Origin: Pseudomonadota bacterium
GTDB lineage: Bacteria; Pseudomonadota; Alphaproteobacteria; Acetobacterales; Acetobacteraceae
Direction: 5' to 3'
Assembly: GCA_021826425.1 (NCBI GenBank)
Contig: JAKAZY010000001.1
Coordinates: 1 to 33,470 of the forward strand
DNA: 33,470 bases
Part shown: piece after piece, positions 4,649 to 30,957 of the stretch
Layout: the number at the start of each line of letters is the position of its first letter
Numbering within the stretch: the stretch's first letter is position 1
Position numbers and translations under genes: made by a program
The notes under the pieces: generated by a model
Databases searched by the model: none
What the model was told of the DNA's origin: nothing
What the model saw: only the letters and a program-made list of their open reading frames with translations

Positions 4649-6142
4649 CTAAGCGGGCATTTTCTCCCGCCTGCGCTGCGCCGAGCCGGGGATACGCAGC
4701 GCTTCACGGTATTTGGCCACGGTCCGCCGTGCTATGTCTATGCCTTCTTTCTGTAAAATGGCCGCTACGGCGTCATCCGACAAAATATTTTTTAGATTCT
4801 CCGCGCCGATGATCTGCGCGACCCGATGACGGACGGTTTCGGCCGAATGCGTCTCACCATTCGCCCCCGTCAGGGCCGTAGTGAAGAAGAATTTCAACTC
4901 GAAAATACCGCGCGGCGTGGCGATGGATTTGTTGGAGGTCACACGGCTGACAGTGCTCTCATGCAGCTCAACCTCAGTGGCGATATCGCGCAGAGTGAGC
5001 GGCCGCAGATGCGATATGCCGTGTCGAAAAAACCCGTCCTGCCGGCGAACGATCTCCGCGCATACCCGCAGAATCGTCTGCGCGCGGGATTCCAGCGCCT
5101 TCACCAGCCAGTTCGCACCCTGCAACTGTTCGGAGAGAAAGCTCTTCGTCTCCTTATCGGCTGAGGCTACCATTCGTGCGTGAAACCCGCGCCTAATGAG
5201 CAGGCGCGGCATGGTCTCTGGGTTGATCTCCAGCATCCAATCCGGCGCGCCATCCTCCGCCGACGGGGTAGGGCGCATCAGCACGTCCGGAATCAACGGG
5301 CGCAGCGGCTCGGAGTCGAATTTAGCCGCCGGTTTGGGGTCCAACCGCTTCAGCTCGGCGATCATATCGGTCATATCCGCTGAATCCACGCCGCAAATAT
5401 CAAGCAGAGCCGGCATCTCGCGCCGGGCCAGCAGCTCTAAATTATCCAGCAGCGCCTGCATTGCCGGGTCCAGCCGGTTCTGTTCCGCCAATTGCACGGT
5501 CAGGCACTCCGCCAGATTGGTAGCAAATACACCCACCGGATCGAACCGCATCATGACAGCGCGTACGGCCTCGAACCTGGAAAGCTCTATGTTAAGGGCA
5601 GCCGCCATCTGTTCCGGGGTTTCGCCCAACCGTCCAGTCGGCTCCAGTACCGCAATCATCGCCTGGGCGACCAGCAAATCGTCTTGGGTCGAAAAAGCGA
5701 GGCGCGCCTGCTGCTCCAGATGCTCACGCAGGCAAGGCCGTTCAGCCTCCAGCGCGTCCCAGGGGTTCCAATCCTCCCCCTCGCCGGAAAGTCCGGCGGC
5801 GCCGTATCCATCCGCGCCGGTTCCTGCGTCATACACATTGCTGACATCCAAATCGAGCGCGGTTGTGGCTGAGTCGGGCAGCATCCCCGATGCGGCGAGG
5901 CTGGCCGGATCGTCCGGAACGACGATCTCCAGCTCCCCTCGCGCCTCGATGGCGACTGCCATTTCACCCCCATTATCATGCTCAAGGAGCGGATTTTTAA
6001 GCAATTCGTCTTCGATGAATGCACTGGCTTCGAGGTTGGAAAATTGGAGCAATTGGATCGCTTGGCGCAACTGCGGAGTCATCACCAGGGACTGAGACTG
6101 GCGTAGATCCAAGCGAGGCGCATAGGATGCAGCAAAAACCAT
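4649..6142 (-). CDS. rpoN: RNA polymerase sigma-54 factor
   Basis: 497 aa. N-terminal LRQSQSLVMTPQLRQAIQLLQ, HESTVSRVTSNKSIATPRGIFELKFFF, and RpoN box ARRTVAKYREALRIPGSAQRRR. Confidence 0.97.
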   Translation of the reverse strand: MVFAASYAPRLDLRQSQSLVMTPQLRQAIQLLQFSNLEASAFIEDELLKNPLLEHDNGGEMAVAIEARGELEIVVPDDPASLAASGMLPDSATTALDLDVSNVYDAGTGADGYGAAGLSGEGEDWNPWDALEAERPCLREHLEQQARLAFSTQDDLLVAQAMIAVLEPTGRLGETPEQMAAALNIELSRFEAVRAVMMRFDPVGVFATNLAECLTVQLAEQNRLDPAMQALLDNLELLARREMPALLDICGVDSADMTDMIAELKRLDPKPAAKFDSEPLRPLIPDVLMRPTPSAEDGAPDWMLEINPETMPRLLIRRGFHARMVASADKETKSFLSEQLQGANWLVKALESRAQTILRVCAEIVRRQDGFFRHGISHLRPLTLRDIATEVELHESTVSRVTSNKSIATPRGIFELKFFFTTALTGANGETHSAETVRHRVAQIIGAENLKNILSDDAVAAILQKEGIDIARRTVAKYREALRIPGSAQRRREKMPA

Positions 6143-26227: not shown

Positions 26228-26255
26228 TTGAAAACCTGACAGCAAGGCTTAAGCT
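26228..26255 (+). promoter_or_regulatory. candidate promoter for the riboswitch-crcB transcript
   Basis: TTGAAA (26228-26233), 16-nt spacer, TAAGCT (26250-26255), a few nucleotides before the aptamer. The match is weak. Confidence 0.35.
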
Positions 26256-26261
26256 ACGCGC

Positions 26262-26334
26262 ATGGGGATGGAGTCCCCCAAACCCGCTCCTCCGGGGAGC
26301 TGATGACTCCTGCAGGCGTCATGCACTGCGGGAG
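26262..26334 (+). ncRNA. fluoride riboswitch (crcB motif) with downstream mutually exclusive hairpin
   Basis: ATGGGGATGGAGTCCCCCAAACCCGCTCCTCCGGGGAGCTGATGACTCCTGC matches the crcB RNA layout: GGGG/CCCC P1, GCTCC/GGAGC P2, UGAUGACUCCU, pseudoknot GGAGT(26270-74)/ACTCC(26306-10). Located upstream of crcB. Confidence 0.93.
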
Positions 26335-26375
26335 CCGTTTGTCTAGGCCCCGCCTTATTGGAAGGAGATTGGCGG

Positions 26376-26816
26376 ATGTTTCAAACCCTGCTTGTTGCCC
26401 TCGGCGGTGCCATCGGCAGCGTCGGGCGATATTGGCTGGCCTTGGCGGCCATGTCCATCAGCCGCAACCTGCCGCTAGGCACCATCATCATCAATATTAT
26501 CGGCTCATTTGCCATCGGGTTTTTCGGCTCGCTGACGCTCAGTCATGGCCGGTTCCCCCTGCCCGAGCCCGCCCGCATCTTTTTCATGGTCGGCATCTGC
26601 GGCGGTTTTACCACTTTTTCTTCCTTCAGCCTGCAAACGCTGGACCTGCTGCGCGGCGGCGCGATGGGCCGGGCAATGCTCAATATCGGCATTTCCGTGG
26701 TCTTCTGCCTGCTCGCCGTGGCGGCCGGCTACGCGCTCGGCTCGCATCTCAGCGGCGCGCCGACACAGCTCAGCCAAAGCGCCAGCCAGATCGCCATCGA
26801 AGAAGAGGCCTCCTAG
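26376..26816 (+). CDS. crcB: fluoride efflux channel CrcB/Fluc
   Basis: [65 protein letters not shown]. Shine-Dalgarno GGAAGGAG upstream of the ATG at 26376. Confidence 0.97.
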
Positions 26817-26819
26817 GTC

Positions 26820-27623
26820 ATGCGCATTCTGGCAATGCTTACCCACCCGCTTACCGCCAGTTCGGTGCTCGCGGCCACATCCTGCCTGGCGGCGCGCTTC
26901 GGCCCAGTGGAAATCGATCTTATCTATCCCCGGCCGGATACCGACCCCGACCTGATGCCCACGGAGGATGTCTATACCGACGTGCAGCGCCAAGGTTTTG
27001 AAGCTTCGCAGGACCTGCTTGTGCAGCATCTTAGCCAGGAAGCGGCCAACTGGGCCGGGGCCGGGTTGCCTGGTTTGCGGCAGATCCGGGGCAAGCCCGC
27101 CGCCATTGCCCAAACCGCCGCCGCCGAGGCGAATTTTGTTGTCCTGGGCGCCCCGCATGGCGATTTTGAAGCCAACACCATTCTGGACGCATTGCTGTTC
27201 AGGGCGAACACGCCGGTTCTGCTTGTCCCGCGCACTATGCCGCGCAGCTTCGGCCAGCATATCGCCATAGCCTGGCAGGGCGAATGCGCCGCCACAGAGC
27301 GTGCCGTCGATTCGCTCGATGGCCTGCTACGGGGGGCAAAGCGCACCATAATCCTCGTCGGCGACCATAAGGCCAGTTCATCGCCGCCACCCGAAGTGCT
27401 CCTGCGCCGGCTGGACGAGGCTGACAAGCGGGCCACCGTTCATCATTTTCCGTTAGATGGGCGACATATCGGCGAGGCTTTACTCAGCGAGGCGCGCCAG
27501 GTCAAAGCGGATCTTCTGGTCATGGGCGCCTTCAGCCACGGCAGGCTGCGAGAGTTTATTTTCGGCGGGGCCACCATCGAGATTCTGCGTGATTTCGATT
27601 TGCCGGTGCTGATGCATCATTAA
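26820..27623 (+). CDS. universal stress protein (tandem UspA-like domains)
   Basis: 267 aa. Second domain ends ADLLVMGAFSHGRLREFIFGGATIEILRDFDLPVLMHH, a UspA signature. Starts 3 nt after the crcB stop. Confidence 0.92.
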   Translation: MRILAMLTHPLTASSVLAATSCLAARFGPVEIDLIYPRPDTDPDLMPTEDVYTDVQRQGFEASQDLLVQHLSQEAANWAGAGLPGLRQIRGKPAAIAQTAAAEANFVVLGAPHGDFEANTILDALLFRANTPVLLVPRTMPRSFGQHIAIAWQGECAATERAVDSLDGLLRGAKRTIILVGDHKASSSPPPEVLLRRLDEADKRATVHHFPLDGRHIGEALLSEARQVKADLLVMGAFSHGRLREFIFGGATIEILRDFDLPVLMHH

Positions 27624-27691: not shown

Positions 27692-28906
27692 ATGAACGAC
27701 TTTCTGACCTCGATGATCGATCTGATGATCGTCGCCATTGCGGTCGCTCTTGTCGCTCGTCGCCTGCGCCTGCCTTATACCGTCGGCCTCGTTATTGCGG
27801 GCATCGCGCTGGCGATGAGCCCGATTCATCTCGCAGTGGCACTCACCCAGAACGTCATTTTCGAAATCATCCTGCCGCCGCTGCTGTTCGAGGCCGCCAT
27901 CAACATCCAGTGGAAAGATTTGCGGCAGGACGCGCTGCCCATTCTCACCCTTGCCATCCCCGGCACGATGATCGCGGCCGTCATCGTCACCGTGGCCTGT
28001 CATCAACTTATAAAATGGCCGCTGCAGCCGTCGCTGATGTTCGGGGTGCTGATCGCGGCGACAGACCCGGTCGCCGTGATAGCGATGTTCAAAGATAATG
28101 GCGTGCATGGCCGGCTGCGCCTGCTGGTGGAAAGCGAGAGCCTGCTGAACGATGGCGTGGCGGCGGTGCTGTTCGCGCTGGTTCTGGCCTGGGCACAAGC
28201 GGCCGGGCAGGCCCACCCCAGCACTGGGCAGATCGCCCGGCTGCTAGGCGTGACTGTGGGCGGCGGCGGCATTTCGGGTGCTCTCTGTGCCGGCATTGCA
28301 ATTCTGCTGGTCCGGCGTACCACGGATCATCTCGTGGAGAGCACCGTTACCACCATCCTGGCTTACGGCTCCTTCCTGCTCGCAGCGCATTTCAACTGCT
28401 CCGGCGTTCTGGCCACCGTCACGGCTGGGCTGCTGATGGGCAATATAGGCCTTGTTTCCTCTGGCCGTTACGGCGCCTCCCTTTCAGACAAAGGCCGTGA
28501 ATTCACCCTAGCCCTCTGGGATTTTTTGGCCTTCATCGCCAATTCTTTCGTGTTCCTGCTCATCGGCATCACCGTCGCTGCGATTCCCTTCCGCGAGCTT
28601 GGTAATTATGCCCTTGCCCTGGCAATCATCATGGTTCTGCTAAGCCGTGCGCTGACCATTTACCCGCTCTGCGCTCTGTTTCAGGGCTCGGCCCGGCGGT
28701 TGCCGCTGCGGTTTCAGCACGTGCTCTGGTGGGGGGGCTTGCGCGGTGCGCTGGGTTTGGCTTTGGCGCTCTCCCTGCCAAAAGACTTGCAGATGCGCGA
28801 TGAAGTGCTCATCGCCACTTTTGGCGTCGTGGTCTTCTCGGTGGTGGTGCAAGGGCTCACCATGCCCCTGTTGCTGCGCGTCCTGAAAATCAGCCCGACC
28901 AGATAA
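27692..28906 (+). CDS. CPA1-type monovalent cation:proton antiporter
   Basis: Multi-TM; LRLPYTVGLVIAGIALAM, ILPPLLFEAAINIQW, GVLIAATDPVAVIAMFKDNGVHGRLRLLVESESLLNDGVAAVLF, WGGLRGALGLALALSLP. Confidence 0.93.
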   Translation: MNDFLTSMIDLMIVAIAVALVARRLRLPYTVGLVIAGIALAMSPIHLAVALTQNVIFEIILPPLLFEAAINIQWKDLRQDALPILTLAIPGTMIAAVIVTVACHQLIKWPLQPSLMFGVLIAATDPVAVIAMFKDNGVHGRLRLLVESESLLNDGVAAVLFALVLAWAQAAGQAHPSTGQIARLLGVTVGGGGISGALCAGIAILLVRRTTDHLVESTVTTILAYGSFLLAAHFNCSGVLATVTAGLLMGNIGLVSSGRYGASLSDKGREFTLALWDFLAFIANSFVFLLIGITVAAIPFRELGNYALALAIIMVLLSRALTIYPLCALFQGSARRLPLRFQHVLWWGGLRGALGLALALSLPKDLQMRDEVLIATFGVVVFSVVVQGLTMPLLLRVLKISPTR

Positions 28907-28908
28907 GC

Positions 28909-29469
28909 CTAACCCCGTGGCACCAGCGCCTTTACCAACCGCGCGGCCAGGGCTTCAGGCATACCGCTATCCGAGGGCAGGCGGGTATCGATCGCGAGGC
29001 TGGCCAACCCGTGCATCAGGCACCAGCATGCGAGGCTTTTATCTTCGGCCTCGCCCGGTGCCACGGTTTTGGCCACCCGTGCGGCGAGTATGCCATAAGC
29101 GGCGGCCAGCGCGTTCTCAAGCTCTGGGTAATGGGCCAGCCGTTCCGGCCCAAAGATCAGCCGGTAAAGAGCCGCATTTGCGGTGGCAAAATGCACATAG
29201 GCAACCCCTTGCGCGATCAGCGGCTCTGCGGCGGAGCGGTCCGCCGTCTCCAGATCCGCTGTCAGCTCCCACACGCCAGAAGTGGCGATGGCGGCAAGCA
29301 GATGCTCACGATCGGCAAAGTACCGGTATGCCGCCGTGGGAGACACGCCCGCGCGCCGCGTGACCGCGCGCAGGCCAAGCCCGGCCATACCATCCGCTGC
29401 CAGAATTTCGCGGCCGGCCTGAAGCAGCACAGAGCGCAGTTCTGGTTTTGCCGGTTTTTGAGTTGACAT
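28909..29469 (-). CDS. TetR-family transcriptional regulator
   Basis: LLQAGREILAADGMAGLGLRAVTRRAGVSPTAAYRYFADREHLLAAIA helix-turn-helix; WHG-like C-terminal domain. Confidence 0.92.
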   Translation of the reverse strand: MSTQKPAKPELRSVLLQAGREILAADGMAGLGLRAVTRRAGVSPTAAYRYFADREHLLAAIATSGVWELTADLETADRSAAEPLIAQGVAYVHFATANAALYRLIFGPERLAHYPELENALAAAYGILAARVAKTVAPGEAEDKSLACWCLMHGLASLAIDTRLPSDSGMPEALAARLVKALVPRG

Positions 29470-29676: not shown

Positions 29677-30957
29677 TCAGTTGAGGGTCTGGACCAACAG
29701 CACCACGTTCAAAACCAAAATCGCCGCAGCGCCGCAGATCGCGGTGCCGTTCACCAGCCTGGTATTTGCAAACCGCCCCATGATGTCGCGCCGGCGGGTG
29801 AACACCACGAGGGCTACCATCGGCACGGGCAACGCAAATGAGAGCACAACCTGACTGATCACCAGCGCCTGGGTGGTATTCACGCCCATGGCCACCACCG
29901 CGAAAGCTGGCACCATGGTCACCACCCGGCGCACCCAGACGGGAATTTTGAACCCGGCAAAACCTTGCATGATCGCCTGGCCCGCCATCGTACCGACGGT
30001 GGAAGAGGAGATGCCAGACGCCATCAACGACACCAGAAACACGCCCGCCGCCGCCGGCCCGAGCAGCGGTGAAAGCGTATGATAGGCGGTACCGATATCC
30101 CCGACTTCCCGGTGCCCGGCGTGGAAGGCGCCGGCCGCGGTCATCACCATCGCCACATTCACCAGCCCGGCAACGCTGAGCGCCACCAGCACCTCGCGGT
30201 TGGAGAATCGCAACAGCATGCGGCGCTCATCGTCGTTGCGCGGCGTCACGCGGTGCTGGGTGAGGCTGGAATGCAGATAAAGCGCGTGTGGCATGACCGT
30301 GGCGCCGATAATGCCGACCGCGATGGTCAGCGCTTCGCTATCCGGTAACCGGGGCAGCACCGAACCGGTTGCCGCTTCTGCCCAATTTACCGGCGCGATA
30401 AACAGCTCCGCCACATAGCAGATCGCGATCACAAGAACGAGCAAGCCGATCATCAGCTCCATCGGCCTGAAACCACGCCCGCCTAACATCAGCATCAGCA
30501 AGGTGATGAGCCCGGTTATCACCATGCCCGGCATCAGCGGGAGATGGCACAGCAGCGAGAGGCCGATGGTGCCACCCAAAAATTCTGCCAGATCCGTTGC
30601 CATGGCGGCCACCTCGCTCACCGCCCACATCGCATAAACCAGAGGGCGGGGCAGATGGGTGCGGCAAAGCTCCGCCAGGTTGCGGCCGGTAACCAGGCCC
30701 AGCTTGGCGGAAAGCCCCTGGAACAGCATGGCAATGACATTGGCCAGCACCACGACCCACAGAAGCTGGTAGTTGTAGCGCGCGCCCGCCTGGATGTTGG
30801 TGGCAAAATTGCCTGGGTCCATATAGGCGATGGAAGCGATAACCGCGGGCCCAGCAAACAGCAGGGGGGTGGCGAACCCATGCCGCCGCCCGGCCAGAAC
30901 GGCCCGAATCTCCGTCTCCGTCCGCTTGCTCAGCCCGGTTTGTGTTTCGGCCTCCAT
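29677..30957 (-). CDS. mntH: Nramp-family divalent metal (Mn2+/Fe2+):proton symporter
   Basis: YMDPGNFATNIQAGARYNYQLLWVV (DPGN motif), IGATVMPHALYLHSSLTQ (MPH motif). Confidence 0.92.
   Translation of the reverse strand: MEAETQTGLSKRTETEIRAVLAGRRHGFATPLLFAGPAVIASIAYMDPGNFATNIQAGARYNYQLLWVVVLANVIAMLFQGLSAKLGLVTGRNLAELCRTHLPRPLVYAMWAVSEVAAMATDLAEFLGGTIGLSLLCHLPLMPGMVITGLITLLMLMLGGRGFRPMELMIGLLVLVIAICYVAELFIAPVNWAEAATGSVLPRLPDSEALTIAVGIIGATVMPHALYLHSSLTQHRVTPRNDDERRMLLRFSNREVLVALSVAGLVNVAMVMTAAGAFHAGHREVGDIGTAYHTLSPLLGPAAAGVFLVSLMASGISSSTVGTMAGQAIMQGFAGFKIPVWVRRVVTMVPAFAVVAMGVNTTQALVISQVVLSFALPVPMVALVVFTRRRDIMGRFANTRLVNGTAICGAAAILVLNVVLLVQTLN

Follow-up and report, generated by a model that had tools for sequence, protein, structure and literature searches.

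A predicted fluoride riboswitch upstream of crcB in an Acidocella-type genome, with a conserved hairpin that excludes the aptamer pseudoknot

Introduction

Fluoride enters the cells of an acid-living genus easily, as HF. The crcB leader of an Acidocella-type metagenome bin (80.8% complete) carries a candidate fluoride-sensing aptamer followed by a strong hairpin with a U-poor tail. The window referred to below is the whole stretch of 33,470 nucleotides from this bin that was analysed, and all coordinates are positions within it.

The use of the pseudoknot strand as the base of a competing hairpin is the described mechanism of fluoride riboswitches (PMC11077080, PMC10687018), and the exclusion of pseudoknot and hairpin also appears in PMC13273304. 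Fluoride exporters, followed by Na+/H+ antiporters, are the commonest genes under their control (PMC11139923).

Results

The aptamer precedes a putative fluoride-response operon

A covariance-model match to RF01734 was found by cmscan at 26255-26319 of the forward strand; it scores 47.8 bits, the gathering cut-off being 34, and has an E-value of 2e-10. It is the sole such match in a covariance-model search of the genome bin. Because the score lies above the cut-off and the element is positioned before a CrcB/Fluc gene, it is almost certainly a fluoride riboswitch. The first-pass annotation had reached the same identification and had named the search against the Rfam crcB model as a check. Its coordinates were all exact: GGAGT at 26270-26274, ACTCC at 26306-26310, CTCCTGCAG at 26307-26315 and CTGCGGGAG at 26326-26334.

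26228..26255, + strand: predicted promoter, TTGAAA-N16-TAAGCT
26255..26319, + strand: predicted fluoride riboswitch aptamer (RF01734, cmscan)
26264..26279, + strand: aptamer hairpin P1, GGGG 26264-26267 with CCCC 26276-26279; its loop ATGGAGTC holds the 5' pseudoknot strand GGAGTC 26270-26275 (Rfam structure line and sequence)
26286..26300, + strand: second aptamer hairpin, GCTCC 26286-26290 with GGAGC 26296-26300 (Rfam structure line)
26376..26816, + strand: crcB, fluoride channel/exporter, start ATG 26376 (PF02537 96.5 bits; TIGR00494 96.3 bits and NF010802 143.3 bits, each exceeding its cut-off)
26820..27623, + strand: Usp-domain protein, 3 nt past the crcB stop, probably on the same transcript (PF00582 42.2 bits)
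27692..28906, + strand: CPA1-type Na+/H+ antiporter, probably in the same fluoride-response operon (PF00999 219.7 bits; TIGR00831 214 bits, below its cut-off)

The genes downstream of the aptamer, crcB, the Usp-domain gene and the CPA1 antiporter gene, are of kinds typical for fluoride regulons (PMC11139923). An Nramp-type metal transporter gene (29677-30957, - strand) is located nearby, beside a TetR-type regulator gene (28909-29469, - strand).

Six orthologues with the riboswitch were found in the same genus, Acidocella (L037, L035, L033, L036, L034 and L015). They have the same leader as the window and, upstream of it, the same reductase gene end. The nearest two orthologous loci belong to the bins REEB79 and REEB107, and the same-genus records include Acidocella isolates as well as bins. 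One further same-genus crcB (L048), whose protein is 82% identical, has a different upstream gene and no riboswitch.

The promoter prediction rests on its TTG-N16-18-TA arrangement, present in all seven orthologous leaders. In 7/7 leaders its second hexamer stops 7-9 nt short of GGGGATGG (the GGGG of P1). In the window, the promoter has 8 of 12 consensus matches and falls below the pattern-scan cut. Because its position is kept in the seven leaders, transcription probably starts close to the first base of P1.

The aptamer core carries a change at one joiner position

A long-range pseudoknot of 6 bp can be drawn between GGAGTC (26270-26275) and GACTCC (26305-26310), the strand after GAUG pairing with the P1 loop. 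The conserved core elements ATGG, CTGATG and T26311 are present, while the joiner is ACCC, not AACC. It reads AAACCCGC in the window and AAAACCGC in six of six orthologues, which corresponds to an A-to-C change at 26283. Because this position is otherwise near-invariant, the window copy might bind fluoride poorly.

It is conceivable that the window carries a decayed copy, in which an impaired aptamer has lost its fluoride response. An ACCC joiner occurs in only two of 113 family aptamers, all six orthologues have A at 26283, and the window aptamer scores 4-9 bits under them. However, its score is still 14 bits over the cut-off, and the pseudoknot is intact, as are the positions equivalent to the binding-site A-U pairs (A26268, T26301, A26303, T26311). 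The second ACCC aptamer, that of G160, has the same change, and in a metagenome bin the change could be an assembly error. We regard decay as improbable; the change may weaken binding, may be tolerated or may stem from the assembly.

A conserved hairpin takes up the pseudoknot strand

The 3' pseudoknot strand runs on into a second structure, formed by strands A and B.

26305..26315, + strand: strand A, the 3' pseudoknot strand GACTCC 26305-26310 running on into CTCCTGCAG 26307-26315, which forms the switch hairpin's 5' arm (sequence, cmscan, shuffle test)
26326..26334, + strand: strand B, the 3' arm of the switch hairpin, CTGCGGGAG (sequence, shuffle test, MAFFT alignment)

The arms form 9 bp with one U-G pair and are followed by CCGTTTGTC. 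The hairpin grows inward by 2 bp (GC 26316-26317 with GC 26323-26324, A26325 bulged), and one predicted fold extends it outward by 4 bp into GATG (26302-26305 with 26336-26339). It is contained in the predicted minimum-energy fold of the window leader. Against dinucleotide-shuffled sequences, the window hairpin has an energy of -18.1 compared with -7.4 kcal/mol (z -4.7), and none of 500 shuffles was as stable. Because it takes up the overlapping pseudoknot strand, the two folds cannot coexist. This choice between A:B and the pseudoknot is very probably the switch.

The hairpin is conserved within the genus. Its z-scores against shuffles range from -3.75 to -5.42 in the seven leaders (window plus six orthologues). 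In the MAFFT alignment of these leaders 94.8% of cells in the A:B columns are paired, and shifting the partner by one to three columns lowers this to 34-56%. Strand A is invariant in all seven apart from position 26315. No compensatory changes in A:B were seen among the seven leaders, in which 7 of the 10 outer pairs never vary, so the hairpin is supported by conservation and not by covariation. Competition of the hairpin with the pseudoknot for the same bases, first proposed from the window alone, is borne out by the orthologues. In a non-redundant set of 98 family leaders, the pseudoknot strand has a downstream pairing partner in 59, where shuffles would give 26% (mean z -1.97).

The hairpin tail is not conserved

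The window hairpin is followed by the tail CCGTTTGT, with 4 T in 8 bases. The orthologue tails are TCGTTCGC, CTGTTTGC, TCGTTTGC, TCGCGCGT (L036), GCGCGCGC (L034) and TTTTGTGC. The T counts in the 8 bases past the stem are 4, 3, 4, 4, 2, 0 and 5 for the seven leaders, so that five T are reached in one. Because the stem is nearly invariant while the tail varies from 0 to 5 T, intrinsic termination at A:B is unlikely. It was rejected as a candidate output, a U-tract being absent in six of the seven leaders. The early doubt about the U-tract was well placed, though Acidocella uses U-tract terminators elsewhere: U-rich tails were counted at 11 of 70 strands at convergent gene ends and at 2 of 60 at divergent ones, in a calibration that covered the window and some 400 kb from other stretches of the genus, with genes called crudely. 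Among 30 family crcB leaders, the strand pairs the Shine-Dalgarno directly in 7 and forms a hairpin without a U-tract in 22; a U-tract (five T in eight) past the competing hairpin was found in none.

The RNA polymerase of this lineage could nevertheless stop past the hairpin despite CCGUUUGUC, with fluoride preventing the stop as in Bacillus cereus. The strong hairpin and the 4 T of the window tail would suit such a terminator, orthologue L015 reads GGGAG-TTTTGTG, and terminators without a U-tract are known from other bacteria (reference cited in PMC13273304). On the other hand, the hairpin is identical or nearly so in L034 and L036, where it is followed by GCGCGCGC and TCGCGCGT. U-tracts are in use in genomes of the genus, and a pattern scan of the window found no terminator-like site. 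A U-poor terminator is unlikely, and we expect with good confidence an output other than intrinsic termination at A:B.

Strand B has a second partner downstream

A further strand, C, can pair with strand B once strand A is unavailable.

26328..26353, + strand: alternative hairpin B:C, GCGGG 26328-26332 (A26333 bulged) and GCC 26334-26336 with GGC 26346-26348 and CCCGC 26349-26353; excludes the switch hairpin (energy against shuffles)

The B:C hairpin exists in the window as 8 bp of -15.3 kcal/mol (p 0.02, only the downstream part being shuffled). Alternative hairpins of 8-14 bp are present in all seven leaders, the strongest in L015 (GCGGGAG:CTCCCGC core). They beat shuffles in most orthologues, with a mean z of about 2.0 over the seven, and are at chance level in L033 and L036. 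The MAFFT alignment gave no B:C covariation beyond shuffles.

A similar excess is seen in the family. Among 50 leaders with 25 nt or more from B to the start codon, 11 reach p < 0.05 (combined p 3e-4). In the negative-control group, whose hairpin adjoins the start codon, 2 of 45 do (combined p 0.81). Gene starts were set by a crude rule, which has probably assigned some leaders of genes other than crcB wrongly; both this comparison and the survey of separate terminators below are noisier as a result.

Separate U-tract terminators with a C-rich 5' arm were found 6-15 nt after B in several distantly related leaders, namely L002, L010, L023, L027, G007, G047 and two of G094. For other genera of the family, L002, L010, L023, L027, L096, L103 and L101 were noted as having a U-tract terminator of their own, 6-15 nt past the anti-aptamer hairpin. 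Pairing of B with the arms of the former set was mostly no better than with a shuffled arm of the same composition.

Possible outputs at the ribosome site or through Rho

26361..26368, + strand: Shine-Dalgarno AAGGAG and its flanks, 8 nt upstream of the start codon (sequence)

The A:B hairpin of the window stops 27 nt short of the Shine-Dalgarno, which lies outside it. Direct masking of this site by strand A is absent from the predicted folds of the window, where A:B wins; the only pairing of A with the site is a 5-bp CTCCT:AGGAG alternative. The segment that follows B can be drawn as a mask of the start region in several orthologues (CGTTTGTC with GGCGGAT; CCGCC:GGCGG), but at duplex energies not above shuffles (mean z -0.28), so this masking is not put forward here. 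Nor does the linker/C segment of the window pair with the start region above chance level (z -0.17).

The modelled cost of opening the ribosome site in the window drops from 9.1 to 6.5 kcal/mol between the states. Since this drop does not exceed the similar one given by a shuffled linker, it does not establish translational gating for the window. The gain in accessibility on blocking strand A is positive in most orthologues; it exceeds the shuffled-linker null only in L015 and, outside the genus, in L030. We put the chances of a translational output at about even.

Rho-linked riboswitches are established in Gram-negative bacteria (see the references in PMC5756330). In such a scheme, the leader and early crcB would be poorly translated without fluoride and Rho would terminate transcription, which fluoride would avoid. 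The absence of an intrinsic terminator is consistent with this, as is the excess of C over G in early crcB (C/G 1.4-2.1 from 26430). The leader, however, is not C-rich over G (0.69-1.17). We consider Rho-dependent control, and Rho as the output, rather unlikely. A candidate upstream reading frame, out of frame with crcB, opens at ATG 26303.

A relay is a further possibility, in which B pairs with A without fluoride or with C in its presence. When not paired to B, C would mask the start region or, in related genera, belong to a separate U-tract terminator. The pattern of B:C hairpins suggests such a relay platform with translational or Rho-dependent output, the evidence being moderate. B:C lies above shuffles in the window and most orthologues, the family enrichment stands out against its negative control, and the separate terminators carry their C-rich arms at a short distance past B. 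B:C is very strong in L015, where the cost of opening the ribosome site drops from 6.8 to 2.6. Against this, B pairs with those terminator arms mostly as it does with shuffled ones, and ribosome-site gating is at chance in the window, L033, L035 and L036. The relay is best taken as tentative.

Proposed mechanism

We propose that the leader is probably a cis-acting fluoride ON switch with the A:B hairpin as the switch element rather than a classical terminator. The exclusivity of the two folds, the aptamer membership, the A:B hairpin with its conservation, the lack of a conserved U-tract and the existence of the B:C alternative were computed here; a fluoride response, its ON direction and its output are those expected from the riboswitch family. 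Transcription would begin with the aptamer or immediately upstream of it. In the absence of fluoride, strand A (26306-26315) would quit a weak apo pseudoknot and pair with strand B (26326-26334), and the gene would be locked off. With fluoride, strand A would be kept in the pseudoknot GGAGTC:GACTCC and the switch hairpin would be prevented. The freed strand B would instead pair with the downstream strand C (26346-26353). Since the hairpin is nearly invariant and its tail is not, the off signal would most likely arise without an intrinsic terminator, through less initiation of crcB translation and/or Rho-dependent termination in the untranslated leader.

Discussion

The window almost certainly contains a genuine fluoride switch, one that is mostly ordinary. 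Its switch mechanism is not new, because the exclusion of pseudoknot and hairpin has been published. The annotation of a mutually exclusive platform stands; direct competition of this kind is the standard mechanism and does not set the switch apart.

The Bacillus cereus crcB and Thermotoga petrophila riboswitches resemble the window in aptamer class, in the 3' pseudoknot strand as the base of the competing hairpin and as ON switches (PMC11077080, PMC10687018). In both, the competing hairpin carries a U-tract and acts as an intrinsic terminator, whereas the window tail is U-poor and unconserved, with a second hairpin downstream. A covariation model of 1901 variants has, like the window, an aptamer with an overlapping downstream hairpin and covers transcriptional and translational types; its U-tract weakens to pyrimidines once all types are included. 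A third strand competing for the 3' arm, as in B:C, is not described in the available part of that source (PMC13273304). The translational fluoride riboswitches of Burkholderia pseudomallei and Pseudomonas syringae, named in the same source, come from Gram-negative bacteria and work without intrinsic termination, as the window switch probably does. Unlike that type, the window hairpin stops short of the Shine-Dalgarno. The predicted crcB fluoride riboswitch of Gluconobacter oxydans 621H belongs to the same family and gene. There, a transcription start of its own was not detected and leader and gene coverage were similar, while the window has a predicted promoter whose position is conserved in seven leaders (PMC5756330).

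The fluoride riboswitches of the Acetobacteraceae, including that of the window, might share a relay platform, although we hold this with less than even confidence. The anti-pseudoknot hairpin would be an intermediate whose 3' arm chooses the aptamer strand or a third, downstream strand, and so controls a start codon or a separate terminator. The literature searched, which left out most subscription papers and possibly the original class descriptions, held no description of such a platform. If true, it would represent a variation on the direct strand exchange already described for these riboswitches.

Several further observations concern the family. Some Acetobacteraceae genomes (G094, G183, G058, G134 and G037) have 6 to 14 fluoride riboswitches each. 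These are often clustered and often lie in divergent pairs with a few hundred bases between them, as with G022:C2:5570-5635 (-) and 5813-5873 (+). In L006, L017 and L026 the riboswitch is located directly before an apparent enolase, enolase being a fluoride-sensitive glycolytic enzyme. In L006 and L017 a long hairpin encloses the ribosome site, and strand B can pair with the 5' arm of that hairpin as well.

The locus adds a well-supported fluoride switch for an acid-living genus. Within one family, the same aptamer and anti-aptamer hairpin are seemingly wired to start-site masking, to a separate terminator or to neither. A comparison across the family would let the change of output be studied while the sensor is kept.
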